DNA of 64,000 nt, taken from positions 1,734,501 through 1,798,500 of the forward strand of contig NZ_CP047289.1 in NCBI RefSeq assembly GCF_018279165.1, given 5' to 3'. Both the position numbers and the translations under genes were made by a program. The notes under the pieces were generated by a model. That model was not told the DNA's origin. It did not search any database and saw only the letters and a program-made list of their open reading frames with translations. The stretch comes from Falsirhodobacter algicola. Lineage in GTDB: Bacteria; Pseudomonadota; Alphaproteobacteria; Rhodobacterales; Rhodobacteraceae. The first letter of the stretch is position 1; each line of letters opens with the position of its first letter. Shown one piece after another: positions 8,634 to 53,560 of the stretch.

Positions 8634-9509
8634 TCAGGAGGCAAGGGCCGACAGCTTGTCGGCCTCCCGCCCCAGATCGTCGGCCAGCCGTTCGGACCAC
8701 AGGGCGTTGACCGTGCTCGACTGGCTTTGGATGTCGGGGATATGCGGCAGCTTCACATCCGGCGGCAGCGCGCTTTCCCGCAGCCCCACCTTGTCGAGGA
8801 TGGCTGCGACATGCCCGGCGGGATCGGTCGCGAAATGCTCGTAGCACAGGATATGCGGCGTGATCCCATGCTCGCGGAAGAACCGGCTCCACGAATGACG
8901 CTCGCGCAGAAGGCGGATCAAGCGGCGGCGGAGCGCGGTGTAATCATAGGTCGGCTGGCGCCAGACCTTCTGCGTGAAGATCCACGATCCGGTCTGCACC
9001 GCGATCTCCAACGAGACCGCCTGCGCGATGATGTCGAGCCGGTCGATCCGAACCCAATGCGCCTCGCGCAGCCACGCATCGGACACGATGGTGCGCAGAT
9101 GCGCCACGTTGGAATAGTGCATCTTCACCGAAAAGCAGCCGTTCGGCCCCGTGCGCCGGCGCACCAGCGCGTCCAGCGTATGCGCGGTGCTTGCCCGCGG
9201 CGTTTCGGTATCGGCCAGCGTCGCCCATTCGCCGAGATAGCTGGCATCGCTTGCCGATTGGCCCGCCGCCTCGGCTGCGACGCGCACGCGCCAGCGGTTC
9301 CAATGGGCGGGATTGAAGTATTCCAGCGGCAGACCGGCGCGCCCGCTCGTGAAGAACTTCTGGCAGATGAAATGGCTGCCGCTTCGGGGAAGCGTCGCGA
9401 AGACCAGCTTGTGGCTCGGCGACGTTCCGGGCGGCCGCCGAGGGAAATCGAAATCGGACCCCACAGTTGGCAAATAGACACTGCTCTTGCGTTCGCGTGG
9501 ATCCGACAT
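8634..9509 (-). CDS. Stf0-family sulfotransferase
   Basis: 291 residues. The N-terminal segment LVFATLPRSGSHFICQKF carries the PAPS 5'-phosphosulfate-binding loop (PRSGSHF) of Stf0 sulfotransferases. This is followed by PLEYFNP and, further on, KMHYSN and the 3'-phosphate region WVRIDRLDIIAQAVS. The C-terminal TRP-like stretch YEHFATDPAGHVAAIL is also typical. Such enzymes sulfate trehalose or other glycans and lipids. The gene stands tail-to-tail with the 999-aa fusion gene with no gap and downstream of the 642-aa paralogue on the minus strand, pointing to a sulfated, possibly pyruvylated surface glycan. Confidence 0.85.
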   Translation of the reverse strand: MSDPRERKSSVYLPTVGSDFDFPRRPPGTSPSHKLVFATLPRSGSHFICQKFFTSGRAGLPLEYFNPAHWNRWRVRVAAEAAGQSASDASYLGEWATLADTETPRASTAHTLDALVRRRTGPNGCFSVKMHYSNVAHLRTIVSDAWLREAHWVRIDRLDIIAQAVSLEIAVQTGSWIFTQKVWRQPTYDYTALRRRLIRLLRERHSWSRFFREHGITPHILCYEHFATDPAGHVAAILDKVGLRESALPPDVKLPHIPDIQSQSSTVNALWSERLADDLGREADKLSALAS

Positions 9510-9530
9510 TCACTTCCTGTTTCGGTGCGA

Positions 9531-9560
9531 GGGGGAGCCGGATTTACCGGCTCACCCCCC
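9531..9560 (-). terminator. Hairpin after the 642-aa glycan gene
   Basis: GGGGGAGCCGG and CCGGCTCACCCCC pair around a short AT loop, with one bulged A. It lies between the stop of the 642-aa gene and the start of the sulfotransferase gene. There is no clear U-run, so it may only attenuate read-through into the sulfotransferase gene. Confidence 0.4.
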
Positions 9561-9598
9561 GTACTTAGTGACCCATGTGCCTTTGGCAATCATGGGGA

Positions 9599-11527
9599 TC
9601 AGGCGCGGTCGAAGATCACAGCCTTTTCCGTGACCTCGGGCAGCGTCGCGAAGGGCGCGGCCTCGATCAGGGAGGTCAGGTTGATGCGCTTGCCGATCGG
9701 GGTGAACATGGACGGCGTGAAGCTGTCATCCCCGATATGATCCAGCTGGCCCAGATCGAGCGGGACGGGCGGCGTGTCGACGCCCACCGACGCGTAGTAA
9801 TCCTGGAACTTGATGCCATCGCCGTGGATCTGCTGGCGCGCATTCGTCACCGTGGCAAGGCACGCCGGGATGCCGTAGGCCTGCGCGATGATGACGCCGT
9901 GCAACGAGCTGGACACGATGCGCTCGCAGCTCAGCATCTCGGTCAGGAACGCTTCGATCTGATCGTAGCCAAGGCGGCGGATGTCGATGCGGCGGATCGA
10001 CGGATCGATGTCGAGCGGTGCATCCTCATGCGTGAAGTGCAGGATCAGCCCGGTCTTGTGGGTCTTGGGAACCTCGGGGCGGTAGAGGATCGGCAGGAAC
10101 CACGCCGCATCGCCATAGACCTCGGGGCAGGTGCCGCCGTTGCGCAGCACCAGATCGCGCGTCATCGGGCCGCGCACGCTGTGATAGACGGCGTCGGGCG
10201 CCAGCGTGTCATCCGCATGCGGAGAGCCCGAACCCCAGACCGGCGTGCCGGCCTTTGCGAACTTGATGACCGATCCGATGGCGCACATCCCTTCGCCGCG
10301 CGGGGCGAATTTGGGCGGCACGCCCGTCATCTTCTCCACGATGTAGGGATTGACGATATCGCCGAGGTTGCCCGGATGCGGCTCTTCCCACCAGAACAGC
10401 TTCACGCGCCGATCGTCGGGGATGCCCGCAGCTTCGGCGCGGCGATCGAGCGAGTGGCGGAAGCTGCGGCTGTGGGCGAAGGCCGTGACCTTCGCATCGC
10501 CCGTCGCCTCGATCTCGGCCACCAGCGCATCGGCCTCGTCCCATTTGCCGGCGTCGAGCGCGCGCATCAGCGCGAACCGCATGGCATAGGGGGCAAGGGT
10601 CGGCACGCTGCGCCCGCGCTTCATCTCGGCGGCGATGCCGGCCTCGTCCTTGGCGCGCTTCAGGATGTCGAGCAGTTTGACATAGCTCGTGATGTCCGTC
10701 CCATCGATGGACACGAGATAGCGCAGCAGGAAGATCACCTGATCGCGCTTCCCGGCCTTGGAGGCGGCCGCGATCAACTCGTTCACGACCATCTTCTGGC
10801 TGTCCGGCTCCAGCGCGCGCGGCACATGCTGGCGCACCTTGCCCTTGTGATCCTTCACGTTGCCGCTGTCGCCGTGGCGGAACAGGGCATCGGGGCGGTC
10901 GGCTTCGTTCGGTTTCAGGATGTCGCGGGGCGACAGCAGCAGGATGCGCGGCTGCGCCTCGGAGGTGCGGAACGCCTGCTCCAGCACGAAATCGTCGGTG
11001 AAATCGCCCTCTTCGGATTTCTCCAGCGCCACCGCATCGTCGAGGAACTGGATCGTCGCAGGCGTGTAGCGGAACAAGATGTAACCGGGGTGGAACGTCC
11101 GCGCCAACGTCGAGAGGTTGTATTGCGGCATGTATTTGAAGTTGCGCGGGAAGATCGCGATGTCATAGGCGCCATCCCCCAGATCGTCGGGGTTCTTCAT
11201 CAAGACCGCGTCCACATCGACCCACATGATCGGCGCTTGGTGCTTGTGCAGCATCTCGCGCCAGAAGCCGACCTTGCGGCGGCAGATCGAGACCCAGTTC
11301 TCGTTCTCGTCGAGTGTGATCGGCTGGATGTCGCAGGCAAGGCCCAGACGTGCGCACTGCGCCCGCAGTTCCTCGGCGCGTTCTTCGTAATATCCGCCCG
11401 TCGTGTAGAAGCTGATGAGCGTCAGCGGCGGGGGCGGCGTGGCGGCATCCGCCTCGACCATCTGCACGGGTTGCGGTACCTGCGTGGACTCTCCACGCCC
11501 GAACTGTTGCCAATACTTTAGCAGCAT
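9599..11527 (-). CDS. Sugar-transferase-like / polysaccharide pyruvyl transferase fusion
   Basis: 642 residues. Residues 35-220 form a transferase-like domain (LTLISFYTTGGYYEERAEEL, PIMWVDVDAVLMKNP with a DxD, FPRNF). A helical repeat region follows at about 240-360. From about 375 a polysaccharide pyruvyl transferase domain is present (FWWEEPHPGNLGDIVNPY, AIGSVIKFAKAG, VRGPMTRD, EVYGDAAWFLP, SSSLHGVIIAQAYGIP). It is a clear paralogue of the last two thirds of the 999-aa protein but lacks the N-terminal family-2 domain. It is transcribed towards the sulfotransferase gene. The start at 11527 has only a weak ribosome site at a long spacing. Confidence 0.8.
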   Translation of the reverse strand: MLLKYWQQFGRGESTQVPQPVQMVEADAATPPPPLTLISFYTTGGYYEERAEELRAQCARLGLACDIQPITLDENENWVSICRRKVGFWREMLHKHQAPIMWVDVDAVLMKNPDDLGDGAYDIAIFPRNFKYMPQYNLSTLARTFHPGYILFRYTPATIQFLDDAVALEKSEEGDFTDDFVLEQAFRTSEAQPRILLLSPRDILKPNEADRPDALFRHGDSGNVKDHKGKVRQHVPRALEPDSQKMVVNELIAAASKAGKRDQVIFLLRYLVSIDGTDITSYVKLLDILKRAKDEAGIAAEMKRGRSVPTLAPYAMRFALMRALDAGKWDEADALVAEIEATGDAKVTAFAHSRSFRHSLDRRAEAAGIPDDRRVKLFWWEEPHPGNLGDIVNPYIVEKMTGVPPKFAPRGEGMCAIGSVIKFAKAGTPVWGSGSPHADDTLAPDAVYHSVRGPMTRDLVLRNGGTCPEVYGDAAWFLPILYRPEVPKTHKTGLILHFTHEDAPLDIDPSIRRIDIRRLGYDQIEAFLTEMLSCERIVSSSLHGVIIAQAYGIPACLATVTNARQQIHGDGIKFQDYYASVGVDTPPVPLDLGQLDHIGDDSFTPSMFTPIGKRINLTSLIEAAPFATLPEVTEKAVIFDRA

Positions 11528-22037: not shown

Positions 22038-23020
22038 ATGCCCATTCTCCGCCGCCTGATCGTCGGCACCGCCCTTGCCCCCATCCCCCTTGCCGCCGCC
22101 GCGCAGGATGCGATCCCGCTTGGTGAGATCGTCGTCTCCGCCGGGCTGACACCAGCCCCGGCAGAGGGCTATGGCCGCGCCAGCACCGTGCTGACCGCCG
22201 CCGACATCGCCGCCCGGGGCGCCGCCACGGTGGAGGATGCGCTGCGCGGCGTCCCCGGGGTCTCGGTCGCCAGCAGCGGCGCCAATTTCACCCAAATCCG
22301 CATTCGCGGCGGCGAGGCGCGCCAGACCCTAATCCTGATCGACGGGGTGGAGGCGGGGGGCGGGTCGGGCGATTACGTCCTCTCGAACCTTCCCATCGCC
22401 GGGATCGCGCGGATCGAGGTTCTGCGCGGCCCGCAATCGACCTTCTACGGCGCCGATGCCGCATCCGGGGTGATCAACATCATCACCGATCGCGGCGCGC
22501 CGGGCCTGCACCATGGCGCCACGATCGAGGTCGGGAACGGCCTCTCCGCCTCCGGCACGGTCAGCCAGCGCAGCGCCGGGGGCGGGCTGTCGCTGAACCT
22601 TTCGCGCGTGGACGATCGGGGGTTCGATCAGTCCGGCGATGGCGGGGAACGCGACGGCCTGCACCGCCGGACGGCGCATCTGGCGGGCGATTGGCAGGCC
22701 ACCGATGCACTGCGCCTTGGCGCCGCGCTGCGCTGGTCGGACGAAGATTTCGATTATGACCGCGAGGATTACGGCTACGATCCCCTCACCTTCGCGCCCA
22801 CGGTCACGGATGCCGCCGGTTTCGTCGATGACGATCCGAGCCTGCGGGGCCAGCGGCGGGAAACGCAAACCGCCCTCTGGGGCGAGCTTTCGGCGCTGGA
22901 CGGGCAGCTTCTGCACCGGATCGACATCCGGGATTCGGTCTATCGGCAGGCATCCGAGGGGACGGAGACGACGCGCGGGGAAACGCAGGCGGCGCGCTAC
23001 CGCCTCAGCTATGGTCTGGA
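22038..23020 (+). pseudogene. btuB: TonB-dependent receptor, BtuB-like, 3' end lost to transposon
   Basis: About 327 native residues, then the frame runs into the transposon end and stops at 23039. A signal peptide (RRLIVGTALAPIPLAAAAQ) is followed by the plug domain: EIVVSAGLTP, VEDALRGVPGVSVASSG, QIRIRGGEARQTLILIDGVEA, RIEVLRGPQSTFYGADAASGVINIIT. Then come the first beta-strands of the barrel. A full receptor needs about 600 residues, so it cannot form a pore. Resemblance to alphaproteobacterial BtuB (vitamin B12 uptake) is supported by a PduO-type adenosyltransferase remnant on the far side of the element. No cobalamin riboswitch is recognisable upstream. Confidence 0.75.
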
Positions 23021-23047
23021 TGTCGTTTTTCACAAATAAGTTCAGCA
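23021..23047 (+). repeat. Left terminal inverted repeat (outer)
   Basis: Begins TGTCGTTTTTCACAAATAAG, directly after native btuB-like sequence. It matches the right end at 25 of 27 positions, better than the inner copy does, so it is the likelier true left end. Confidence 0.85.
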
Positions 23048-23137
23048 GCCTGTCACAGACGGTTCAGTGAACGGCCGCAGCGTCGAAGCAGCCGTTCGCG
23101 CAGACCGCCGCGAACGGCTTGAAGGAGCCCTAAGCCG

Positions 23138-23671
23138 TCACTCGAGGGGAGCGTGTGTTGGCTTCCACATGGCGATCCGAGTTGTCATGTCTAGGAACGT
23201 TGCATGGCGATCAAGGATGGCCTGTAGGCTCGGCCCAATCCGACTTTCATGCATCTCTGCATAACCGAGCTTCCTATACCAAGGGGCGTTCCACCTCGGG
23301 ATACGGAAGGTAGCTAAACATGTCCCCGAAACGCCAGCGGCATAAGCGTAGTCCTCTGCCCATCCAAGCAACCGCTGCCCGATGCCTTTGCCTGACATCC
23401 CGTCATCGACCATAAGGCTTGCAATGTAGAGCATGTCATCAAGCGGCTGCACGATGATATAGCCTGCTCGGCGTCCGGCGTGCTCGGCCACCATTGTAGT
23501 CCCGGTTCTGAAACGTTCGGGGTTAATCGCTGGAGCCGCCGCAAATTTTTCGTAGCCTTTCAGTGAAAGGTAGCGCCGATGCGCTGCACGCTCCAGTTGG
23601 CACAGGTCATCAATTTCGGCCTCGTCGTAGGATCGAAGAAGAGTGCGAGTATTGTTCATGGTCATGATCAT
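23138..23671 (-). CDS. GNAT-family N-acetyltransferase
   Basis: Up to 177 residues; starts at codons 1, 3 and 5 (MIMTMNN) are equally possible, and none has a clear ribosome site. The acetyl-CoA-binding core is seen as LYIASLMVDDGMSGKGIGQRLLGWAEDYA (motif A with GKGIG) and the strand-helix FRIPRWNAPWYRKLGYAEM (motif B). The substrate is unknown; small GNATs on transposons often modify antibiotics, but no specific class is indicated. Base composition is visibly less GC-rich than the chromosome. It lies between the two left-type transposon ends. Confidence 0.75.
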   Translation of the reverse strand: MIMTMNNTRTLLRSYDEAEIDDLCQLERAAHRRYLSLKGYEKFAAAPAINPERFRTGTTMVAEHAGRRAGYIIVQPLDDMLYIASLMVDDGMSGKGIGQRLLGWAEDYAYAAGVSGTCLATFRIPRWNAPWYRKLGYAEMHESRIGPSLQAILDRHATFLDMTTRIAMWKPTHAPLE

Positions 23672-24404
23672 TGCATGGCCAACGCCTTAGGCGTGGTCTT
23701 TCCCGGACCTAATCCACACACATGCAAAAGCACGCTGCGAGGCTAGATGGTGGAACAGGGCGGGTACTCATGATGGTGGTCGTCGCAGTCCAGACCTCGC
23801 GACGCCGGGCGGCGACTGATTTACCCGGCGCCGTTCATACCGAGGCCGTCATCATGGCCAAAAAGAGATGTTTTATCGCGACCCATCATGACCATCGCTT
23901 ACCCGGGGAGCCGTATTTGGACAAGTGAAGCTTCTGTAACGAGCGGCAGCTTTCAGCGCGGGACAAAAACGGTCGTTTCTGCACACCTAGAAGACATATG
24001 TTCAGAAACTAGTGTCGTTTTCCACAAATAAATTCAGCATTCTGTCGTAAGGTGCTCAGTGAACACCCGCAGCACAAAAAGCTATCGTTCAGGCAGATTT
24101 CGACAAAAGCTGGATCGAGCCCAATTTACCAGATGCTGTGCTACGCGCGAATGACGGCTCCGGTGGAGCGCTACAATCGCTGCGTGGTGTCCGTTTGGGT
24201 CCAGACCTGACCATGGCGGCGCTGTTATAGGCCGCAGACGACCCGTGTGCGCTGCTGGATGCGCCTCACTCAGCTGTCCCATCATGGTGATTGTCATGGC
24301 AATGCCGTGTTTTGCCGGTCTATGGGCTTTCAGATTCAGAACCCCGTGCTGAAAGACGCTGAGTAACCGGCCGGGGCGGCTCGCAGCCGCCCCGTGTCTC
24401 AAGC
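23672..24404. other. 733-bp non-coding stretch inside the transposon
   Basis: Contains the inner left-type repeat at 24013-24039 and no convincing gene. Two short frames (23722-23928 plus, 24082-24408 minus) lack recognisable motifs, ribosome sites or coding bias. It is probably remnant DNA between an older element end and the cargo. Confidence 0.55.
24013..24039 (+). repeat. Second, inner left-type terminal repeat
   Basis: TGTCGTTTTCCACAAATAAA and the next seven bases match the outer left repeat at 24 of 27 positions, and similarity continues for tens of bases (for example CTCAGTGAAC and CCGCAGC in both). It matches the right end at 23 of 27. It implies two related insertions or a nested, partly deleted element. 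Confidence 0.8.
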
Positions 24405-25592
24405 TCACTCAGCCGGAACGGCATCGGGCTCTCGAAGGGCCGCCGTCGCGATAAGGGCGATGACCACCAGCGCGGCGGCGATGAGAAACATTCCCGAAAG
24501 GCCCGTCAGCGACAGCAGCGTCGACCCGATAGCGGCGCCGAAGCCGATTGAGCCATTGAACAGCGCTACATAGATCGCCGAGGCCTGAAGGGCGTCTTCG
24601 CCAGCCTCCTTGAGCACCCAGGTCTGGAGGCCGACCAGGATCGCAGCGAACGCGCCGCCCCATAAAACGAGCGCCATTGCAGTGCCGACCAAGCCCAAGA
24701 CGTCTCCGACCAACGCAAGCGCGCCGAGAGAGATGCAGGCGGAAAGCAGGGCCATGGTGACCACCGTTTTGAGCCGCGTGTCGATCAAGGCGCCAGTCAG
24801 GAAATTGGCCGCCACCCCCGCCAGTCCGAAAAGGAATAGCAGTGGCGCGACCCATCCAGCCGCCAAGCCGATTTCGCTCGACAGGAACGGCTCGATGTAC
24901 GTGAACGCTATGAAGTGTGCCGTGATCGCGAAGAGGGTCGCCACGAAGATGCGCTGAAACGCAGGGATCGCCAGAATGCGCCAGAGCGAGCGGACCCCGA
25001 CACGTCCCGATCCGGAAACATCCGGGACGGTCATCCTCAGAGCCGCAGCGACAAGAACGGACAGCACGCCGATGGCCAGAAATGCCGTTCTCCAGCCGTG
25101 TTCCAGCCCGATGAAACTCGCCAGCGGCACACCCAGAACACTGGCGACCGAAACCCCGCCGAATATGATCGAAGTGGCCACGCCGACCTGTCGTGCAGGG
25201 ACAAGCTGCGCGCCGAGGGTTCCGATCATGGCCCAAAAGGCGCCGTGCGCCAAAGCGCCTAGGATACGCGCGCCCATGAGCCACGAAAAGGACTCCGCGA
25301 AGCCTGCACAGACCCCGGATCCCCCCAGGATCATCATGAGACCCACCAGCATCGGGCGTCGCGGGGCCGCTCCCAGCCAGACCGCTGATGCGAGCGCAGC
25401 CGCGACTGCGATCCAGGCGTAGAGCGTCACGGCCAAGCCGGCCGTCGCGGTCGTCACGCCGAGATCGCCGGCGATCAGAGAGAGCAGGCCGATCGGAGCG
25501 AGTTCGGCGGTCACGATGGAAAAGCTGCCGACACCGAGGGCCGCGACGGCGAACCAGTCACGCGGCGATGCGCGGTCAATGTGATTTATCAT
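24405..25592 (-). CDS. MFS exporter, DHA1-like
   Basis: 395 residues with about twelve hydrophobic segments, the normal size for the major facilitator superfamily. The N-terminal half has FSIVTAELAPIGLLSLIAGDLGV and the AraJ/YdhP-like motif around GARILGALAHGAFWAMIG, as in DHA1 drug or metabolite exporters. It is an inner-membrane proton antiporter by family. It is the last gene of the minus-strand cargo set after the aldo/keto reductase and CMD genes (22-bp gap), opposite the LysR gene. The exported compound is probably related to what those enzymes process. Confidence 0.85.
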   Translation of the reverse strand: MINHIDRASPRDWFAVAALGVGSFSIVTAELAPIGLLSLIAGDLGVTTATAGLAVTLYAWIAVAAALASAVWLGAAPRRPMLVGLMMILGGSGVCAGFAESFSWLMGARILGALAHGAFWAMIGTLGAQLVPARQVGVATSIIFGGVSVASVLGVPLASFIGLEHGWRTAFLAIGVLSVLVAAALRMTVPDVSGSGRVGVRSLWRILAIPAFQRIFVATLFAITAHFIAFTYIEPFLSSEIGLAAGWVAPLLFLFGLAGVAANFLTGALIDTRLKTVVTMALLSACISLGALALVGDVLGLVGTAMALVLWGGAFAAILVGLQTWVLKEAGEDALQASAIYVALFNGSIGFGAAIGSTLLSLTGLSGMFLIAAALVVIALIATAALREPDAVPAE

Positions 25593-25614
25593 TTGGAAAC
25601 TCCTGAGCGCAGGG

Positions 25615-26001
25615 TCATTCAGGCGCCTCCGCGAAGGCCTTCTTCGCGGAAGTCATGGCGTTCATGGCGGCCGGAACCCCGGCATACACGGCCACTTGGT
25701 AGACGATCTCAACGATCTCCTGGCGCGAGACCCCAGTGTTCATCGCCGCGCGCATGTGGAAGTCGAGCTGGCCGGGGGCTGTCCCCATCGAGGCCAGCAT
25801 CGCGACGGTCAGCATCTCCCGCGTCTTCAGGTCGATGCCCGGCCTCGACACCACGTCCGCGAAGGCGAAGCCCAGAATGATCTCGGTCGCATCGCTGTCG
25901 AAGTCAGTGAGATTTGCGTCCACGCGGTCGGGCGCACCCGCTTCCAGCCGCTCCAGAAGGGCCAGCGCGGCAGCCCGGCGGCCGGCAGGCATACCTGTCA
26001 T
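25615..26001 (-). CDS. Carboxymuconolactone decarboxylase-family protein
   Basis: 128 residues from the ATG at 26001. All-helical CMD fold with the family stretch SRPGIDLKTREMLTVAMLASMG and MRAAMNTGVSRQEIVEIVYQVAVYAGVPAAMNAM. There is no CxxC, so it is not an AhpD-type peroxidase partner. Proteins of this kind either decarboxylate lactone acids or act in redox detoxification. The start overlaps the stop of the aldo/keto reductase gene (ATGA), so they are translated together. Confidence 0.85.
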   Translation of the reverse strand: MTGMPAGRRAAALALLERLEAGAPDRVDANLTDFDSDATEIILGFAFADVVSRPGIDLKTREMLTVAMLASMGTAPGQLDFHMRAAMNTGVSRQEIVEIVYQVAVYAGVPAAMNAMTSAKKAFAEAPE

Positions 26002-26981
26002 GCGTTCACTCCCTTCATGCCTTCCGGCGTGTAGCGTTCCCCGACGATGGGGAGCTGCGAGATCGCCTCTTCGAGGCGCCGGCAGTCCGCATCTTCCATC
26101 GCGACCTCTACGGCGCCGACGTTGTCTTCGAGATAAGCGCGCCGCTTGGTTCCCGGGATAGGCACGATGTCGTCGCCTTTGGCCAAGAGCCAGGCCAGCG
26201 AGAGCTGAGCAGGAGTGCAGGATTTCTCGGCCGCCATCTCCCCGATGACGTCGGCGATGCGACGGTTCTGGCCCATCGCCTCGTCCGCAAAGCGCGGCAA
26301 CCCAGAGCGGAAGTCGCCTTTTCCGAACTCTGCGGACGACTGGAACCGCCCCGTCAGGAAGCCGCGGCCGAGCGGGGAGTAGGGCACGAAGCCGATCCCC
26401 AACTCGCGGCATGTCGGGAGGATCTCCGCCTCGACGCCGCGAGACCACAGGGAGTACTCCGTTTGCACAGCCGTCACCGGATGCACAGCATGGGCGCGGC
26501 GCAGCGTTTCGGCACTGACCTCGCATAGACCGATGCGCGCGATCTTTCCGTCCTCGACCAGCCGTGCGAGCCCCTCCATCGTCTCCTCGATCGGCTGATC
26601 GGTATTGACGCGGTGGACGTAGTAGAGATCGATCTGCTCGATCCCGAGACGCCGCAATGAGGCTTCGCAGGCCGTCCGGGCGTAGTCCGGCGCGTTGTCA
26701 AGGCTGCGCTTGTATTCGCCGGGACGCCGGACGATTCCGAACTTGGTGGCAACCCGCACATCGGCACCGGTCTCGCGCAGGAAGGCCCCGATCAGCTCTT
26801 CGTTGTGGTGGGGTCCGTACATGTCGGCCGTGTCGAGAAAGTCGATTCCCAGATCGACCGCGCGGGACAGGACCTCCATTGACTCGGTGTCGTCGCGAGG
26901 GCCGTAGAACTCGCTCATCCCCATGCAACCCAGACCGATTGCCGAGACCTTGAAGTCCCGCCCAAGGGCACGCTTTCTCAT
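25998..26981 (-). CDS. Aldo/keto reductase (YajO/GSP69-like)
   Basis: 327 residues from the ATG at 26981; a longer frame reaches into the divergent LysR gene and is rejected. RALGRDFKVSAIGLGCMGMSEFYG opens the barrel. LDTADMYGPHHNEELIG gives catalytic Asp/Tyr, ATKFGIVR the lysine and DLYYVHRVN the histidine. The NADP loop is IPGTKRRAYLEDNVGAV. First gene of a three-gene minus-strand operon with CMD and MFS genes, divergent from a LysR regulator 73 bp away, which probably controls it in response to a toxic carbonyl or aromatic compound. Confidence 0.88.
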   Translation of the reverse strand: MRKRALGRDFKVSAIGLGCMGMSEFYGPRDDTESMEVLSRAVDLGIDFLDTADMYGPHHNEELIGAFLRETGADVRVATKFGIVRRPGEYKRSLDNAPDYARTACEASLRRLGIEQIDLYYVHRVNTDQPIEETMEGLARLVEDGKIARIGLCEVSAETLRRAHAVHPVTAVQTEYSLWSRGVEAEILPTCRELGIGFVPYSPLGRGFLTGRFQSSAEFGKGDFRSGLPRFADEAMGQNRRIADVIGEMAAEKSCTPAQLSLAWLLAKGDDIVPIPGTKRRAYLEDNVGAVEVAMEDADCRRLEEAISQLPIVGERYTPEGMKGVNA

Positions 26982-27054
26982 GATATTCTCCTTGTTCGTG
27001 CAACCTGATACATGGCACACGGGAAGAATGGAAAATGTAGCCAATTGAGAGAAC

Positions 27055-27972
27055 ATGATTTCCATTTCCGGAAATCGACCCCGACGGCCGATCATCTGGG
27101 ACGACGTTCGTGCGTTCCTTGCAGTGGCCCGGCACGGGACGCTGACCGCTGCGGCCGACGCGCTCGGCATCGGCATCGCAACGCTGTCGCGCCGGGTAGA
27201 TCGCCTGGAAGACGCACTTGGCATTCCGCTGTTCGTGCGTCAGCAATCGGGTTATCAGCTTACCGAGGAAGGCAGCGAGTTGCTCGATCGCGGAGAGGCA
27301 GTCGAACAAGCCGCGCTCGCCTTCGAGAGTACTGGAGGCCGGGAGCCCCAACTGACCGGACGGGTTCGCCTCGCCACGGCCGAAAACCTTGCTAACGGGT
27401 TGATCCTACCCGCACTGCCGAAGTTCCGACGCCTCCATCCCAGGCTCATGGTGGAAGTGGTCACCGACATCGTAACCGTGAACGTCCACCGCCGTGACGC
27501 GGATCTTGCCGTTCGCATGGTCAAGCCCGAACGCGGCAACGTGACGATCAAGCGCCTCGGGACCTTGGGCTACGGCCTCTATGCCGCGCCGTCCTATGTC
27601 GAGACACGCAGCGTTGACACCCACGGGGGTGCCTATGAGGGCGACGAGATTATCACCTGGGGCGACGCCCACTCACACCTGCCGGCGGCCCAGTGGGTCG
27701 AACGGGTTCTTCGGGGTCGGCAGCCGGCTCTGACGACCACGTCGCTCTCTACCCAAGTGGCGGCGACACGGGCCGGGCTGGGCATGGCGGTGCTTCCCCA
27801 TTTTCTCGCACGGGATGCGGGCCTTGAGTGTCTGGAGAGCGATATCGGGATCGATCAGCCGATCTACTTAGTGATGCAATCGAACTTGGCGCAATCTCCA
27901 CGCATCCGAACGCTGGCGGACTTTCTGGTCGAGATTGTGTCCGCCAACCGGACACGTCTGCGCGGATACTGA
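27055..27972 (+). CDS. LysR-family transcriptional regulator of the transposon cargo
   Basis: 305 residues. The N-terminal helix-turn-helix is IIWDDVRAFLAVARHGTLTAAADALGIGIATLSRRVDRLEDALG, followed by a periplasmic-binding-protein-like effector domain (TGRVRLATAENLANGLILPALPKFRRLHP). It belongs to the LysR subgroup that begins with a WDD motif. It is divergent from the aldo/keto reductase operon and likely activates it. A perfect GATTTCC-N6-GGAAATC palindrome (27057-27076) overlaps its own start and may be an autoregulatory site. Confidence 0.88.
   Translation: MISISGNRPRRPIIWDDVRAFLAVARHGTLTAAADALGIGIATLSRRVDRLEDALGIPLFVRQQSGYQLTEEGSELLDRGEAVEQAALAFESTGGREPQLTGRVRLATAENLANGLILPALPKFRRLHPRLMVEVVTDIVTVNVHRRDADLAVRMVKPERGNVTIKRLGTLGYGLYAAPSYVETRSVDTHGGAYEGDEIITWGDAHSHLPAAQWVERVLRGRQPALTTTSLSTQVAATRAGLGMAVLPHFLARDAGLECLESDIGIDQPIYLVMQSNLAQSPRIRTLADFLVEIVSANRTRLRGY
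27057..27076. promoter_or_regulatory. Palindrome at the start of the LysR gene
   Basis: GATTTCC (27057-27063) and GGAAATC (27070-27076) are exact inverted repeats around six bases. They overlap codons 2-8. This could be an autoregulatory binding site or an mRNA hairpin limiting translation. Confidence 0.35.
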
Positions 27973-28196
27973 CCAGGCCGTTCCCGGCGCATCACGGTCT
28001 CACCGCCGCGGCCGCGGGTACCGCGCTCTGCTGCATTCCGAATTTGAAAAACACATTTGCAAAATTTTCCAAAGATTCCGCAGGCGGAAATCTGGAGTCT
28101 CCAAGATGCGTTGGCCGGGCAATGGGCCTCCGGGGACAGCAGCGTAGGCGTAGGCGTAGCGAATTCACACTATCGTCCTGATAGCTGCCAGCGGAC

Positions 28197-28769
28197 CTAA
28201 TCCGGGTCTGCGTCCGCTTTGGTATTTCCTGTATCCAGCGCCCTGTATATGGTCATGCGCGAAACCCCCAGGTCTCGGGCAATCTGGGCTTTGGATGTGC
28301 CCGCTGCAGCCTGTCTCTGAATTTCAGCGTCATCGACCTTCTTCTGACGCCCCTTGTAGATCCCCTTGCCCTTCGCGGCCTCGATCCCTGTGCGTTGGCG
28401 GTCGCGAATGAACTTCAGCTCCATGTCGGCGACCATGCCGAGGACAGTGATCACCATGCGCCCCATGTCGCCCGCCGTCGTCACCTCGGGTTCAAGGATA
28501 CGTAACGACGCGCCCTTCGCATCCAACTCATGCACCAGATTCAGAACGTCTCGGGTGGACCGCCCAAGGCGGTCGAGGCGATGAACGACCAACTCGTCAC
28601 CTGCACGCAAAAACTCCAGGACGGTTGCCAGTTCGGTGCGACCGTCACGGGACGCTCCGGAGCCGGTTTCGGCGCGGAGAATTTCACACCCTGCCGCCTT
28701 AAGTTTGGCTTTCTGGATCTCAAGGTCCTGACTTGTTGAGCTGACGCGGGCGTAACCGATCTTGGGCAT
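28197..28769 (-). CDS. tniR: Serine resolvase (TniR-like)
   Basis: 190 residues. KIGYARVSSTSQDLEIQKAKL contains the nucleophilic serine of resolvase/invertases (YARVSS). VVHRLDRLGRSTRDVLNLV and the long helix around MVITVLGMVADMELKFIRDRQRTGIEAAK follow, and a C-terminal helix-turn-helix is visible (KAQIARDLGVSRMTIYRAL). It resolves transposition cointegrates at the adjacent res site. It is the last tni gene, as in Tn402/Tn5053 elements. Confidence 0.92.
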   Translation of the reverse strand: MPKIGYARVSSTSQDLEIQKAKLKAAGCEILRAETGSGASRDGRTELATVLEFLRAGDELVVHRLDRLGRSTRDVLNLVHELDAKGASLRILEPEVTTAGDMGRMVITVLGMVADMELKFIRDRQRTGIEAAKGKGIYKGRQKKVDDAEIQRQAAAGTSKAQIARDLGVSRMTIYRALDTGNTKADADPD

Positions 28770-28856
28770 GGAGAAATGTCACTTTAGGGTGGCTATATTC
28801 CTGATACTGTCACAATGACTGTTGCGCCACTCATTTGTGACATTTCAAGCTGTCAC
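28770..28856. repeat. Putative res site of the transposon
   Basis: Four copies of TGTCAC or its complement GTGACA occur within 80 bp between tniR and tniQ: 28777, 28808, 28837 (inverted) and 28851. Resolvase subsites in this family lie in the same place. Exact subsite limits cannot be set by eye. Confidence 0.6.
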
Positions 28857-29236
28857 ATCGGTATGTCTCCTATGAGTGTGCCCAAATGTTGCGATCTCGG
28901 TTGAAAAGCCCACGCATATCTCTGCCGGCCTTCCGGCGTGGCTATCCACTCTTCGAACTCCGCCCATAACCGCGCAAGATTCCGTCGGCGGCGTTCTTCG
29001 AACATGCGCAAATCGTCTATCGACATTCCGAGGCCGACGGACAGGCGCTCCAGCACGTCCTCTGTCGGCCGAATGAAAGAGCGTGCCTCTTCGTCGTAAT
29101 GCGCAATGTTCAGGGCGTAAAAGCAGAAACTCTCGAAGGGAACGCCATAACAGCGGGCAAGACTTTGGACGTATTGACGCAGAGTATCGACCTCCCCCGG
29201 TGGCGGGTGCAGCGGCCAGGTCGGTTCTGGCTTCAT
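28853..29236 (-). CDS. tniQ: Short TniQ-like transposition protein
   Basis: 127 residues from the ATG at 29236, which overlaps the tniB stop (ATGA). WPLHPPPGEVDTLRQYVQSLARCYGVPFESFC matches the N-terminal TniQ core (PLHP...SWL.RLA...G). TniQ proteins usually run to about 400 residues and help choose the target site. Here the C-terminal zinc-finger and repeat portion is absent. The stop lies within the res-like repeats. It could be a minimal version or a truncated one. Confidence 0.65.
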   Translation of the reverse strand: MKPEPTWPLHPPPGEVDTLRQYVQSLARCYGVPFESFCFYALNIAHYDEEARSFIRPTEDVLERLSVGLGMSIDDLRMFEERRRRNLARLWAEFEEWIATPEGRQRYAWAFQPRSQHLGTLIGDIPM

Positions 29237-29604
29237 GCTCGAAGCTCCCGTTCCATCATCTGCCGCCGGTGGGAGGGTGCTTGGAAAAAACAGTTCATCA
29301 AGTCGCATTCCTCAATGCGTTCCCGCCCCTCCATCAGCGCATGTGCTGTTGCGCTCGAAAGAAGCTGGTGCATTTCCCCGATCAGGCCCTCCGATCGCTC
29401 CACGATCAGCCTGCGCAACGCGGGCAGGCCGAGACCGGACGGCTCACGCAGAGGGATCACCGTTTCAAAGCTGGCCAGCAGGCGTCCGGTCTCGGAATCG
29501 TCACCCCATCTCGATAGCAAAAATGGCTGGAAGCGGTTTTCGAGCTGGTCGTCCAACCGGAGGGCCAACCACGCATCCTTGGTCCCAAGCGCGACGATGG
29601 GGAT
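29233..29604 (-). pseudogene. tniB: tniB, 3' fragment (interrupted by the IS3-family element)
   Basis: Carries the C-terminal part of TniB: IPIVALGTKDAWLALRLDDQLENRFQPFLL, then LLASFETVIPLREPSGLGLP and GEMHQLLSSATAHALMEGRERI. Removing the 1253-bp insertion and one GGAT copy joins this in frame to the N-terminal part as ELRI-PIVALGT, the expected family sequence. The break is therefore a clean insertion and tniB is otherwise intact. Confidence 0.88.
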
Positions 29605-29671
29605 TGACCTGCCCCCCGCGAAATCCCTCACCTTAATGTAGAGTCTGCGCCAACTCTGAAGGAGCAGACTT

Positions 29672-29935
29672 ATGAGAAAGAGCCGTTTCACCGAGGCGCA
29701 GATCATCGGAATGATCAAGGAGCAGGAGGCCGGGATGCCGACTGCGGAAGTGTGCCGTAGGCATGGGCTGAGCACTGCGACGTTCTACAAGCTGAAGGCC
29801 AAGTATGGCGGCATGGAGGTGTCCGAGGCTGCCAGGCTAAAGGCCCTTGAGGACGAGAATGCCAAGCTGAAGCGCCTGCTTGCGGACACCATGCTGGACA
29901 ATGTCGTGTTGAAAGACCTGCTGGGAAAGAACTGA
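29672..29935 (+). CDS. IS3-family OrfA (helix-turn-helix)
   Basis: 87 residues: [44 protein letters not shown] is the classic IS3-family HTH. A leucine zipper follows ([29 protein letters not shown]). It binds the IS ends and, by a -1 shift at GGGAAAG near its end, continues into the transposase. AAGGAGCAG precedes the start. Confidence 0.93.
29923..29929 (+). promoter_or_regulatory. Programmed -1 frameshift heptamer of the IS element
   Basis: GGGAAAG reads as G GGA AAG in the orfA frame, the X XXY YYZ slippery pattern. Slipping back one base continues as [16 protein letters not shown] into orfB, avoiding the orfA stop two codons downstream. Confidence 0.65.
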
Positions 29936-29940
29936 CGACA

Positions 29941-30831
29941 TTGACGAAGCGGCGAGATGCGGCGCTCCGGGTGATGCGGGATCATGACATCTCGCAGCGC
30001 CGGGCCTGTAGGCTGGTTGGTGTCGATCCCAAGACCGTTCGGCGTGAACGCCCGCCGGACAGTGCCGATATCCGCCAAGAGATGCAGGAGATCGCCGGCA
30101 AGCGGCGTCGGTTCGGGTATCGCCGGATCGGGGTCCTGCTGGAACGCAAGGGCATGATCATGAACCACAAGAAGCTGTATCGCATCTATCGCGAGGAAGG
30201 GCTTTCGGTGAAACGACGGCGAGGCCTGAAACGGGCGCGCGGCACGAGGACGCCGATGCCGGTTGCCGCGTGGCCCAACGCGCGCTGGTCGTTGGACTTC
30301 GTGTCCGACAGCTTTGGCGCGTCGCGGAAGTTCCGGATCCTGGCGGTGATTGATGACTGCACCCGGGAATGCCTGTGCCTCGTCGCGGACACCAGCCTGT
30401 CAGGGGCGCGTGTCGCCCGGGAACTCAGCTCCCTGATCCGGATTTACGGCAAGCCGGGTTGCATCGTCAGTGACAATGGCACCGAGTTCACCAGTCGGGC
30501 CATCCTCAAATGGGCCGACGAGAACGAGGTGCCGTGGCACTACATCGACCCAGGCAAGCCCCAGCAGAATGCCTTCGTCGAAAGCTTCAATGGCAGCCTG
30601 CGGGACGAGCTACTCAACGAAGAAATCTTCGACAGCTTGGACGACGCACGGCGAAAGCTGGCGCTCTGGCGCTACGACTACAACACGATCAGGCCACACT
30701 CGTCCCTGGCCAACCAGACGCCGCAGCAAGCGCGCCGGACGCTTGAGCAATTTGAGGGCTTCGCGCCCGGCGCGCTTGCGAAAGATGACCAAGCCGAATA
30801 CCGAAATCCAAACTGCAGACTCTCGTTATGA
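29941..30831 (+). CDS. IS3-family OrfB transposase
   Basis: About 296 residues from a TTG, more probably made as an OrfAB fusion by frameshifting. HTH_21-like [21 protein letters not shown] comes first. The rve catalytic domain carries the DDE triad: Asp in WSLDFVSD, Asp in IVSDNGTEF and Glu in [17 protein letters not shown], with 35-residue spacing for the last pair. [12 protein letters not shown] is the usual C-terminal signature. It appears complete and so may be active. Confidence 0.95.
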
Positions 30832-30857
30832 ATGAGGGACCAGTGGGATGCAGGTCA

Positions 30858-31386
30858 GGATGCGAAGCTCATTTCCCAGATATCGGATAAGCCCCAGAAT
30901 CTCGCGCTGCCGCGATGACGGGCCGCAGAGCAGGTTGTGCAACTCATCTATGAGAAGAAGCCGCACACCGCAGGCCTGCATAAGGTTCAGCGTCACAGCG
31001 TTTCGCCGATCCGTCTGCCGCAACTTCCCGAAAGGTGATCCCAATGCATCGAGCAATTGTGCGTAGAACCGTGGTGTCGTAACGTCCGGCATCATCTGGA
31101 CCGCGAGGACCGGAAAAATGTGTCGGTCCCTTTCTTCCGAACTTAGCCGGGGGTGCTGGCGCTGGAATTTCTCGGCAATGGTCGATTTGCCGTTGTTGCT
31201 CGGCCCGACGATCAGCATGTTCTGCGGTCGGACACGGCCGGGTTGCGTCGCAATCAGCATCCCCATGCGTTTTAGGGCATCTTGTGCCCGGGAATAGCCG
31301 ATCCAGCGGTCGGTCGCGAGAAAACCGAGCCGCTCGACTGCGGGCATTTCCGCGATGCGCCGGGCTTCTGGCCGAAGATGCTCCAT
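30858..31386 (-). pseudogene. tniB: tniB, 5' fragment (AAA ATPase of the transposon)
   Basis: Starts at the ATG at 31386, five bases after the tniA stop. Walker A is GPSNNGKST and Walker B LLLIDELHN, with the family stretch YLGNELRI just before the IS insertion. TniB is the AAA regulator that activates the TniA transposase. Because the IS splits it, this copy of the transposon is probably unable to move by itself. Confidence 0.9.
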
Positions 31387-31391
31387 CGTCG

Positions 31392-33053
31392 CTACCACTC
31401 CTCTATATCTGTGAATGGTCGCGGCGGACCGTCGGGTTCGTTGCGCAAGAGCTCCGCCGGGTCTGCCGCCTGCGATCTGGATACCGATGGAGACTGCCAA
31501 TCCAGCACCGGCCGCGACCGACGGCGGCGGGCGCTCTTGGAAAGCCGGGCCGCGTTGCGCTCAATCTCCTGCATTTCCTCGAATGCGGCGAAAATGGCGT
31601 CCTCGTCCACGGTCGCCGCATTGCGTTCCTGGGCACGTCGCCGCGCTGCCCGATGTTCCCAGAGCGTGATCGACGGTCGGGAGAGTGTGCGATACGGCAC
31701 TTCAAGCCAGGAACCGTCGAACGGGTCGAGAACATATACACGCGAGAGGTCTCGTGGGTCGCGGCGCAGGATCAGATGTCCCTCCGTCCGAACGTCGCGC
31801 GAGACGATCCACGGTTTCAGGGCGTTCGAGAAATAGCGGATATGATCTACGGTGAATCCATCGCGTTGCAACGTCCTACGCAGAACCGGGAGGAAATCGA
31901 TCAGATAGCTGCGCATGTCACGCGGGATGGCGATGCTGCCGCCAGATCGGCTCAAGGCCACGAAACCTTCCTCCAGCCGGGCAAGAGGTGTGGCCCCGTC
32001 CAACCCACGATGCCCGGACAGGTGATAGTCTTTGCAAATCGCAACCGTCAGCCAGCGTTCCAGTTCTTCAAGGGTCAGGCAGGCCTGTCTTTCGCTGTCG
32101 TATGTGCCGCGCTGTGCGGTGTTGGAAAATGTCGTGCCCGGCAACTGGTGAATGCGCCGCATGAGGGTGCCGATCACACGCTCTACAATGCCACCGAACT
32201 GAGGTTGCCCTGGCGGTCGCCAGTCGATCTCAATGCCATGTTGCGCGCACCCGCGCTCGAAAGCCTGCGAGTGGAACTCGCCGGCATTGTCCACGCCAAT
32301 CTTCTTTGGCTTTCCCGCAATCGGCCACTCCACATCCGTGACGCCGCGCGCGGTCATCCAGGTTTTCTTACCGTCGGCGACGTGGGCGAGGCACAGGCCG
32401 ACGCTCGCGGCGGAAGGGGGATCAAGGCTAAGATGGAAGCCCGCGATCATCCGGCTCATCACGTCGATCGCAACCGTCAGATATGGTCGCCCGATTGGCA
32501 GACGCTCGAACGGATCGACCAAAATGACATCGACCGGCGTGTGATCAATCTGCACGACGTCGAGCGGGTATTTCGGGATCGGGGGCGCGCCGAGGATCGG
32601 CTTTGTTCCCGGATCACTTTCGCGGAGCCGTGACGCGACACCCTTGTCGATCCGGTTAACCCGTCGCCTGATCGTGGCTTCGCTCGGAGGCGAAATGCCC
32701 GCCTTGCGGCACTCGACCTGAACCACCCTCACGATTTCCGAGGGGCGCGCTTTCTGCCGTTTGAGATAGCGGCCTTCGATGACATGACCGATGATCGCTT
32801 CCCGATCCCCCGCGATCCGCGTCTTGCGCGGAGCACCGCGGCCATCGCGCGGCAAGAGCGCCGTGACCGCGCCGTTTTCTTCACGAAGCCGGCGGATCAG
32901 CCTGTAAGCCCAACGTTCGGAAATTTTCAGATCAATCGCTGCAGAGCGGACAAGATGCGCTGGTGCTTCATGGAGCGCGGCAAGTGGCCGAAGCAGAACC
33001 GCCCGTTCCTCGGCTTTCCGCCATACGTCTTTCGGAACGGATTCCAGATCCAT
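31392..33053 (-). CDS. tniA: TniA transposase (Mu/Tn7 TnsB-like DDE)
   Basis: 553 residues from the ATG at 33053, preceded by AGGA seven bases away; a start 19 codons earlier is less likely. N-terminal HTH segments (KISERWAYRLIRRLREENG, PPSEATIRRRVNRID) are followed by the rve catalytic core: Asp in VVQIDHTPVD, Asp in IGVDNAGEFHS and Glu in GGIVERVIGTLMRR. A Mu-transposase C-terminal domain follows. It cuts and joins the 27-bp ends. The gene begins about 150 bp inside the right end and appears intact. Confidence 0.93.
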   Translation of the reverse strand: MDLESVPKDVWRKAEERAVLLRPLAALHEAPAHLVRSAAIDLKISERWAYRLIRRLREENGAVTALLPRDGRGAPRKTRIAGDREAIIGHVIEGRYLKRQKARPSEIVRVVQVECRKAGISPPSEATIRRRVNRIDKGVASRLRESDPGTKPILGAPPIPKYPLDVVQIDHTPVDVILVDPFERLPIGRPYLTVAIDVMSRMIAGFHLSLDPPSAASVGLCLAHVADGKKTWMTARGVTDVEWPIAGKPKKIGVDNAGEFHSQAFERGCAQHGIEIDWRPPGQPQFGGIVERVIGTLMRRIHQLPGTTFSNTAQRGTYDSERQACLTLEELERWLTVAICKDYHLSGHRGLDGATPLARLEEGFVALSRSGGSIAIPRDMRSYLIDFLPVLRRTLQRDGFTVDHIRYFSNALKPWIVSRDVRTEGHLILRRDPRDLSRVYVLDPFDGSWLEVPYRTLSRPSITLWEHRAARRRAQERNAATVDEDAIFAAFEEMQEIERNAARLSKSARRRRSRPVLDWQSPSVSRSQAADPAELLRNEPDGPPRPFTDIEEW

Positions 33054-33177
33054 GACCGATCCTGCCTCCTGCAACGCGCTGAACCGGTGTCTGACGGTCT
33101 TGCAACGCACCGAACTGTCTGGTGATCAGTATTGAAGTCTTTTGTGACAAGCGCGTGTCAATGAAAACAATGGCCAG

Positions 33178-33204
33178 TGCTGAACCTATTTATGAAAAAC
33201 GACA
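33178..33204 (-). repeat. Right terminal inverted repeat of the transposon
   Basis: Read on the minus strand it starts TGTCGTTTTTCATAAATAGG. Just inside are TGTGACA and TGTCA repeats (33142-33160), as expected for multiple transposase-binding sites. The next base, 33205, is within a cobalamin adenosyltransferase reading frame. Confidence 0.85.
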
Positions 33205-33543
33205 CTGTTCGATCTGGGCGGTGCCCTGTCCATCCCCGGCACGCCGCAACTGAGCGACGATCACGTTGCCCGGCTGGAGCGTATGGTGGACGAATGGAAC
33301 GCCGCCCTGCCCCCGCTGAAGGAGTTCATCCTGCCCGGCGGCTCCCCCGGCATCGCCGCCTTGCACGTCGCCCGCACCGTCTGCCGCAGGGCCGAACGGC
33401 GCCTTCTGACCGCCGGGGGGATCGGGCCGGGAATGGTCTATCTGAACCGCCTGTCCGACCTCCTCTTCGTCGCCGCGCGCACCGCCGCCCGCCTGCAAGG
33501 CATACCGGAGCGCATATGGGACCGGACGCGCAGCCTGCCCTAG
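33205..33543 (+). pseudogene. pduO: PduO-type cob(I)alamin adenosyltransferase, C-terminal remnant
   Basis: The frame is open from the transposon edge: LFDLGGALSIPG, then LPPLKEFILPGG, HVARTVCRRAERRLL and YLNRLSDLLFVAART. These are the signature helices of ATP:corrinoid adenosyltransferases, which attach adenosyl to cob(I)alamin. About 112 of roughly 190 residues remain and the N-terminal ATP-binding part (TGDxGxT) is missing, with no start. It is almost certainly non-functional. It pairs with the truncated btuB-like gene on the other side of the element. Confidence 0.85.
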
Positions 33544-33603: not shown

Positions 33604-33693
33604 GGAGAGGTGGCCGAGTGGTCGAAGGCGCACGCCTGGAAAGTGTGTAGGCGGGGAACCGTCTCGAGGGTTCGAATCCCTCTCTCTCCGCCA
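33604..33693 (+). tRNA. tRNA-Ser (GGA)
   Basis: A 90-base cloverleaf including encoded CCA. The acceptor GGAGAGG pairs with TCTCTCC and the D-arm is GCCGAGTGGTCGAAGGC. The anticodon loop CTGGAAA (anticodon GGA) sits on stem CACGC/GTGTG, followed by the long variable arm typical of class-II serine tRNAs. The T-arm is GAGGG-TTCGAAT-CCCTC. It reads UCC/UCU codons. A GGGATCG/CGATCCC hairpin at 33765-33784 may end the transcript. Confidence 0.97.
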
Positions 33694-52600: not shown

Positions 52601-52987
52601 GGGCTTGCCTTTCTTCGCATAGGTCCGCGCAAACCAATAGCAGATGTGAAACAGCTCGCTCACCACCACCTTGGCGTCCGACGCCGAAGGGGCCTTTGCA
52701 TCATGCGCCGCCTGATTGCCGCGGTCCTTGATGATCTTTGCCTTCGCGACGATGGCCGGTCCCGTCAGCGCGGCAAGCGAGGGTTCATGCACCAGCGCCG
52801 CCAGCGTGTCCTGATAGGGCGACTTCAGCGCCTTGTCGCTGCGGAACATCCACAGCAGCGCGATCTCCAGCGTCAGGCGGGCGTGGAAGCATGCGTTGCG
52901 GGGGTCGGACAGCGCGGCGAGTTCCGCCTTCTTTGCCGGATCGAACAGCGCAGGAAATTCATCGGCGAGGAAGGCGAATTGCGACAT
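49604..52987 (-). CDS. hsdR: Type I restriction endonuclease subunit R
   Basis: 1127 residues. An N-terminal DUF4145-like helical domain (1-125) and a coiled coil (150-207) come first. The nuclease site follows: Asp256 in FIDYVLW, Glu271 and Lys273 in VEAKRTK. A superfamily-2 motor comes next: ATGSGKT 384-390, IDEAHRS near 487, GLTATPRD, MLDTGIDVPDVVN and QMVGRGTRLRR. The C-terminal half binds the methylase. It cuts unmodified DNA after translocation. Last of the core hsd genes, with a GIY-YIG-like gene between it and hsdS. Confidence 0.95.
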   Translation of the reverse strand: MSQFAFLADEFPALFDPAKKAELAALSDPRNACFHARLTLEIALLWMFRSDKALKSPYQDTLAALVHEPSLAALTGPAIVAKAKIIKDRGNQAAHDAKAPSASDAKVVVSELFHICYWFARTYAKKGKPDPAPSFDVAKLETTLTITASTVSQIKALADKQSAALKAQKEAEEAQLASEAGRAKLEAEIAALRAEIAAVKAANQAQADTHDYDEAATRDAFIDLLLTEAGWPLDQPRDREFRVTGMPNAAGEGFIDYVLWGDDGKPLALVEAKRTKTNALAGQQQAKLYADCLETMFGRRPVIFCSNGYEHWIWDDAMYPPRGIAGFLKKDELVLLHQRRSTRKVLDTVEVDESIVERFYQHRAIRRVGDAFESKQRHALLVMATGSGKTRTVIALIDQLLRANWVKRVLFLADRVALVKQAHGAFKAHLPSAPSANLLQSHDPTQNNHTTARVCLSTYPTMMGLIDEMKGGEKRFGPGHFDLIVIDEAHRSVYRKYRAIFEYFDGLLVGLTATPRDEIDRDTYSLFQLERGVPTDSYDLEDAVDDGYLVPPKGISVPLKFQREGITYDRLSDEEKDAWDALEWSDEGDPPDHVDANDLNKWLFNIDTVDKVLKHLMTNGIKVAGGDRLGKTIIFAKNSAHARFIVERFDINYPHLKGSFASLIDYSVSYAQSLIDDFSEPEKGPHIAVSVDMLDTGIDVPDVVNLVFFKIVRSRTKFWQMVGRGTRLRRNLFGPSEDKHEFLIFDYCQNLEFFGENPDRVEPGGTAPIGERLFRVRLDLITALEAAKHEGDLGLRDRLHQEVAGMNVDNFIVRPHRRDVEAFQTRAAWDNLDATAQEALSAHVAGLPTAFRDDNLPAKQFDLLVLGSQLALLRGEAAFARAQTRIRDLASSLEALANIPLVAKQLSLILDIQTDEFWTDITVDLLEEMRRKLRLLVELIEPKTRKLVITDFEDEIGTGEAVSLPQVGAGVDKAQFRMKVRSFVERHKDNIALLKLRRGQQLTAQDLTELERMFLSEGVDPAALSEAVGADGLGVFLRAMTGLDRAAAKEMFSEFTATHSPNADQTEFLNLIIDSLSESGIVDPERFYESPFIDLDDMGIAGIFKEAQVKEIITIVRRSNSSASAVA

Positions 52988-53054
52988 GGCACCAGCAACT
53001 TAAAGACGTGCCTACGCTAGCCGCCGCGCGATGCACCGGGCAAGCAGAAACGTC

Positions 53055-53558: not shown

Positions 53559-53560
53559 GG

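Follow-up and report, generated by a model that had tools for sequence, protein, structure and literature searches.

The window analyzed here, 64,000 nucleotides of the Falsirhodobacter algicola genome (NCBI RefSeq assembly GCF_018279165.1, contig NZ_CP047289.1, positions 1,734,501 to 1,798,500 of the forward strand), holds a Tn5053-like element lodged between the first half of a btuB-like receptor gene and the in-frame end of pduO, a gene for a PduO-type adenosyltransferase. The region is very probably what remains of a btuB-btuF-btuC-btuD-pduO cobalamin-import operon that was shortened by an element-mediated deletion. The place of pduO in this reading is taken from one congener, G005 in our genus sample.

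Two gene remnants flank a transposable element

An earlier note, made from the letters alone, had described an element set between these two genes, and the arrangement is as it said. The element spans window positions 23021-33204, which we take as one transposition unit on the basis of its inverted ends and the matches of those ends to plasmid elements. Both neighboring frames remain open up to its edges. The features at the two junctions are as follows.

22038..23020, + strand: 5' half of a btuB-like TonB-dependent receptor gene, 327 codons, open frame from the ATG at 22038, Plug domain (PF07715)
23021..23047, + strand: left terminal inverted repeat of the element, 27 nt, identical on plasmids of Paracoccus sediminicola, Rhodobacteraceae bacterium SC52, and Sagittula
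33178..33204, - strand: right terminal inverted repeat, 27 nt, identical in the P. sediminicola and SC52 plasmid elements
33205..33543, + strand: 3' part of pduO, 112 codons plus stop, in frame from its first base, PF01923 profile positions 65-171 of 171

The receptor remnant keeps the TonB plug domain, and its β-barrel is cut. TIGR01779 (TonB-B12) is its best NCBIfam match, below the full-length cut-off, as is also the case for the full-length BtuB of G005; the B12 role of the receptor is assigned on account of the riboswitch and the neighboring genes in G005. On the other side of the element, the PduO remnant scores 105.7 bits against PF01923, with the first 64 profile positions missing and the N-terminal part gone. 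Its score against TIGR00636 (105 bits) falls just below the cut-off of 108.45, in line with what a truncated gene should give. The earlier note had taken this remnant for the last third of the gene; it is in fact ~60%, aligning to residues 69-179 of 187 in G005 PduO.

The two 27-nt arms of the element are 93% complementary, and its first 106-114 bp are 95.6-97.3% identical to left ends on the three plasmids named above. Immediately outside the arms, the 5-mers differ (CTGGA on the left, CTGTT on the right), so there is no target duplication, as had been noticed before. Further out, no exact direct repeat of at least 9 bp is common to the 300 bp outside each end. Two intact relatives of the element, on the P. 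sediminicola and SC52 plasmids, do carry 5-bp target duplications (GCCGC and TTCAA). The element family therefore makes such duplications, and their absence at the window copy is meaningful. With the 5-bp duplication missing, a plain insertion could account for the window copy only if a duplication had been made and had later mutated.

The intact locus in a congener

Thirty PduO loci were compared, namely those of the window and of G005 and 28 others; four further PduO matches came without a locus. The genus sample comprised seven genomes (G000-G006), with G000 the window's own and G005 the same-genus comparison genome. In G005, btuB, btuF, btuC, btuD, and pduO succeed one another on one strand, which bears out the expectation of the earlier note that a relative would hold btuB and pduO in one locus. 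A cobalamin riboswitch lies upstream of btuB (121.8 bits). At the other end, pduO is convergent with metH, the 3' end of which overlaps it by 28 nt. The equivalents of the two break points span 3,639 bp in G005 (L052 positions 6591-10229, by alignment). Relative to this genome, ~3.64 kb of DNA is gone from the window: the rest of btuB, all of btuF, btuC, and btuD, and the start of pduO. The metH of G005 is itself split over two open reading frames (ORFs; 346 and 900 aa, L052 2519-6258), the second of which is the one convergent with and overlapping pduO.

The order of receptor, substrate-binding protein, permease, and ATPase also recurs in all three of the named Rhodobacterales plasmid loci that were opened, out of 15 records listed. 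These loci, on Paracoccus and Phaeobacter plasmids, share their gene order and receptor family with the G005 locus, and their genes are annotated merely as a TonB-dependent receptor and parts of an iron-type ABC transporter. Compared with such btu loci, all that is left in the window is the opening half of btuB together with the final 60% of pduO. Among named genomes, the BtuB fragment matched 6 distant loci (Polynucleobacter, Jezberella, Sheuella, and uncultured beta proteobacteria), none titled as belonging to the same class, and DNA searches of plasmids likewise gave no close kin.

The genome of F. algicola was searched for the missing parts with a joined query from G005 consisting of the C-terminal half of the receptor, BtuF, BtuC, and the N-terminal part of PduO; BtuD was left out. 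Eight places matched: at six the similarity was to BtuC (27-39% identity), and at two it was to the receptor half (28-29%). No place matched BtuF or the PduO N-part independently. Four alignments extended slightly across a junction between query segments, and in three of these the aligned region contained a stop. As for other copies of the two outer genes, about which the earlier note had asked, the single PF01923 match in the genome is the pduO remnant, and receptor matches are weak: three other genes match the N-terminal half of BtuB at 30-43% and, by this evidence, do not appear to be btuB. A stretch of tniA, the transposase gene of the element, had one match in the genome (40 of 74 first-look candidates scored). 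With the query parts undetected elsewhere and one tniA match found, deletion is favored over rearrangement and over misassembly via repeated elements.

Several observations weigh against a deletion from a btu operon. Direct succession of btuD and pduO was seen in a single relative, G005. Around the 28 other PduO loci, flanks of ~1.5 kb yielded no btuD match at E 1e-8, and the fifth gene is something other than pduO in all three named plasmid loci. The genes outside btuB are unlike those of G005, and metH is not next to the window pduO. The G005 proteins are merely 59% (BtuB) and 66% (PduO) identical to the window remnants, and no strain with an empty site was found. The three receptor genes and the six places that match BtuC could in principle encode paralogues that carry some B12. 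Finally, a search extended to E values of 1 detected no cobalamin riboswitch before the window btuB. The deletion is therefore not the only change to have taken place, and the missing riboswitch is perhaps a further sign of decay.

Origin of the scar

Element-mediated deletions are a familiar phenomenon. The earlier note had proposed an insertion followed by such a deletion within a cobalamin locus, and this proposal gains support from the G005 locus and from the genome search. The element would first have inserted into btuB or pduO, after which an event that it mediated would have removed everything between its tip and a site within the other gene. By one route, intramolecular replicative transposition into the second gene would have produced an adjacent deletion, with tip-exact junctions and no duplication. 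By another, two direct copies would have recombined, either through the resolvase or by homology. The data fit both and do not separate them. The loss would have been tolerable in a cell that makes methionine via MesD/MesX and deoxynucleotides via a class Ib reductase and so may have little or no need of B12.

In its fullest form, the second route calls for separate insertions of the element into btuB and pduO in the same orientation, followed by homologous or res x res recombination that deletes the interval. We consider this mechanism, which falls within the deletion favored here, possible though rather unlikely. It would give the same tip-exact junctions without a common duplication. The element encodes a serine resolvase, a diverged left end at 24013 suggests a pile-up of related elements, and a nested copy of the element family occurs in P. 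sediminicola. However, two insertions are required, and the genome yielded the tniA stretch just once.

Far less probable is a history in which btuB and pduO never belonged to one locus in this lineage and the element joined unrelated flanks. Such a history would accord with the restriction of the pduO-btu link to G005 and with the etfB-like gene found in the pduO loci of 20 of 29 relatives. However, the window PduO groups with the btu-linked PduO of G005 (100/99), separate from the 28 other PduO sequences, in a tree whose bootstrap is unsettled and in which the G005 row is flagged as long. Most of the relatives' pduO genes compared are of a different kind. In addition, the window pduO lies downstream of btuB on the same strand, like that of G005.

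Relaxed selection would permit both a deletion and an insertion, and the deletion could then have come first, with the element later hitting the junction by chance. A plain insertion of this kind should have left a 5-bp duplication, as in the two relatives; the window has none, which makes this order of events highly improbable. If two element copies had served as the ends of an inversion or translocation, with the remaining gene halves now elsewhere, the 5-mers would also be mismatched. We rejected such a rearrangement as scarcely credible: no second tniA copy was found among the candidates scored, BtuF and the PduO N-part were not found, PF01923 has its one match, and the paralogues reach merely 28-29% for the receptor and 27-39% for the permease. 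Least probable of all is an assembly artefact, for although the element contains an IS3-type repeat, tniB on both sides of this insertion aligns to the uninterrupted tniB of two relatives, and the contig is 2.28 Mb long with one tniA copy found. The deletion of an interval between btuB and pduO remains the best explanation of the scar.

Content and affiliation of the element

The remaining features of the element, and the gene just beyond pduO, are listed here.

23138..23671, - strand: GNAT acetyltransferase, passenger (PF13508/PF00583)
24013..24039, + strand: second, diverged left-end copy inside the element (79% over 61 nt)
24405..25592, - strand: MFS transporter, passenger (PF07690)
25615..26526, - strand: ORF with a C-terminal carboxymuconolactone-decarboxylase-family part, passenger (PF02627 at residues 214-295)
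25998..27224, - strand: ORF containing an aldo/keto reductase, passenger, start uncertain (PF00248 at residues 96-387)
27055..27972, + strand: LysR regulator, passenger (PF00126, PF03466)
28197..28769, - strand: serine resolvase (PF00239)
28853..29308, - strand: small ORF in the resolvase-tniB interval, without Pfam match; hypothetical proteins are annotated there in two relatives
29605..30854, + strand: IS3-type insertion splitting tniB, ~1.25 kb, seen as an alignment gap against two relatives; similar plasmid DNA is annotated as IS3 family transposase
30826..31500, - strand: ORF with the larger, N-terminal part of tniB (PF05621); the remaining tniB lies in 29233-29640, also PF05621
31392..33110, - strand: tniA transposase (PF09299, Mu-transpos_C; rve, PF00665, below cut-off)
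33604..33693, + strand: tRNA-Ser(GGA), just right of pduO

Transposons of the Tn5053/Tn402 family are characterized by tniQ, inverted ends of ~25 bp, and 5-bp target duplications. The window element has in common with Tn5053/Tn402-like transposons a tniA with a Mu C-terminal domain, a tniB, a serine resolvase, and ends starting TGTCG. Its tniA scores 40.1 bits against PF09299, above the cut-off, and 28.8 bits against rve, where the cut-off is 32.6. None of the 10 element proteins scanned matched TniQ, and the small ORF at the place of tniQ has no Pfam match; we therefore call the element Tn5053-like and do not place it as a Tn5053/Tn402 member. It further differs from that family in lacking a target duplication and in carrying an IS3-type insertion in tniB. 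With tniB interrupted, the element is probably now unable to move by itself. Whereas Tn5053/Tn402 transposons are described as inserting into res sites (PMC7765201), the window element sits between the remnants of two metabolic genes. Its nearest Tn5053/Tn402-like elements, on the P. sediminicola and SC52 plasmids, have right-hand backbones with 87-92% nucleotide identity to that of the window, and their passengers differ.

The second left end lies 992 bp inside the element (the interval being 23021-24012), with the GNAT gene between the two left ends. This arrangement perhaps reflects nested or serially acquired related elements. On P. sediminicola plasmid p1, the tniA region of another copy appears to host a relative of the element, which is bounded by the GCCGC duplication (L105 1-361, L064 15766-16015). 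Members of the element family can thus insert into one another. Elsewhere in the window (~50700-56200), the DNA resembles genes of type I restriction-modification systems (methyltransferase, S subunit, and helicase) on Thioclava, Ruegeria, and other plasmids.

Vitamin B12 enzymes across the genus

The F. algicola genome (2.78 Mb in 6 contigs, 99.91% complete) encodes no protein with the B12-binding domain PF02310 and hence no MetH. The same domain is missing from G006 and present in the other five of the seven genus genomes. No intact PduO was found in G000, and neither PduO nor BtuF in G006. A CobO-type adenosyltransferase is present in four of the seven genomes (G001-G004) and absent from G000. 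Tetrapyrrole methylases number two in G000, three each in G005 and G006, and eight or nine in each of G001-G004. None of the seven genomes, the apparent B12 makers included, has a QueG domain (PF08331).

Each genome in the sample has exactly one PF02867 reductase. That of G000 is a class Ib NrdE (1231.8 bits, cut-off 750) with NrdF adjoining, and the NrdE proteins of the six other genomes are 93-96% identical to it. The single PF02867 protein in every genome had posed a real challenge to the B12-free reading, since it might have been a ribonucleotide reductase of the B12-dependent class II; with NrdE identified as that protein in G000, this possibility was rejected there. Taken together, G001-G004 look like B12 makers, G005 like a scavenger, and G000 and G006 like B12-free organisms. 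For G000, the B12-free reading is based on the scans for PF02310, PF08331, and PF02867, outside which lie B12-dependent dehydratases and ammonia-lyase without PF02310. At least one cobamide-dependent enzyme is reported for 86% of ~11,000 species (PMC6461909); 14% therefore have none, and a total absence is not rare.

How G000 might make methionine is suggested by a mesX-mesD operon (L087 5467-7685, at ~1.595 Mb of C1), in which a PF08908 MesX is followed by a short MetE-like protein. This MesD consists of the MetE catalytic domain without the folate domain and matches NF006589 methionine synthase at 687 bits (cut-off 392). It is the sole PF01717 protein in G000, and a full-length MetE was accordingly rejected. 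Among the families searched (PF01717 and, for MetH, PF02310), mesX-mesD is apparently the only methionine synthase of G000. According to Price and co-workers (PMC7857596), MesD working with MesX requires oxygen and needs neither cobalamin nor methyl-folate, and the pair is the sole methionine synthase in 22% of the organisms that have it. The predicted G000 pair resembles theirs in that a PF08908 MesX precedes a short relative of MetE from which the folate domain is absent. MesX and MesD are also adjacent in G005, G006, and G001. A second, weaker PF01717 protein occurs in each of G005 and G006; G004 carries a PF01717 protein, and none occurs in G002 or G003.

Order of events

In trees of NrdE and NrdF, G000 falls with G006 (99/95 for protein, 91/93 for DNA), with G005 next in the protein tree only (90/93); coming from one gene pair, the trees are slender evidence. 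G006 is thus the apparent sister of G000. Taken at face value, this branching would place the loss of B12 synthesis before the split from G005, and MetH would have been lost in the shared ancestry of G000 and G006 or, alternatively, on two separate occasions. With a single loss, the locus would have had no use left by the time of the cut. As G006, too, yielded no B12-binding-domain protein, and neither PduO nor BtuF, the locus may have been useless before the break. The earlier note had predicted altered B12 dependence; the scar need not have brought such a change about. Both remnants are still open frames, 439 codons in all, which weakly suggests that the cut is not old.

Implications

The scar has the appearance of a fossil left when vitamin B12 was given up. 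We tentatively propose, as a plausible reading that could well turn out otherwise, that the clade records a stepwise abandonment of the vitamin. It would lead from makers (G001-G004) through an importer with both MetH and MesX-MesD (G005) to the B12-free G000 and G006, the transposon deletion in G000 being the last step, enabled by the oxygen-dependent, folate-independent MesX-MesD. No report of this scar appeared among the literature titles and abstract openings searched, a weak negative given that most subscription journals lie outside their coverage. B12 loss is usually deduced from plain gene absence, whereas a scar with both outer genes in frame reveals the locus that was lost and the agent that removed it. 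It is unusual for the scar, an intact congener, and a substitute enzyme all to be visible together. A genus in which apparent makers and a scavenger occur alongside B12-free species would lend itself to testing whether MesX-MesD makes B12 dispensable.

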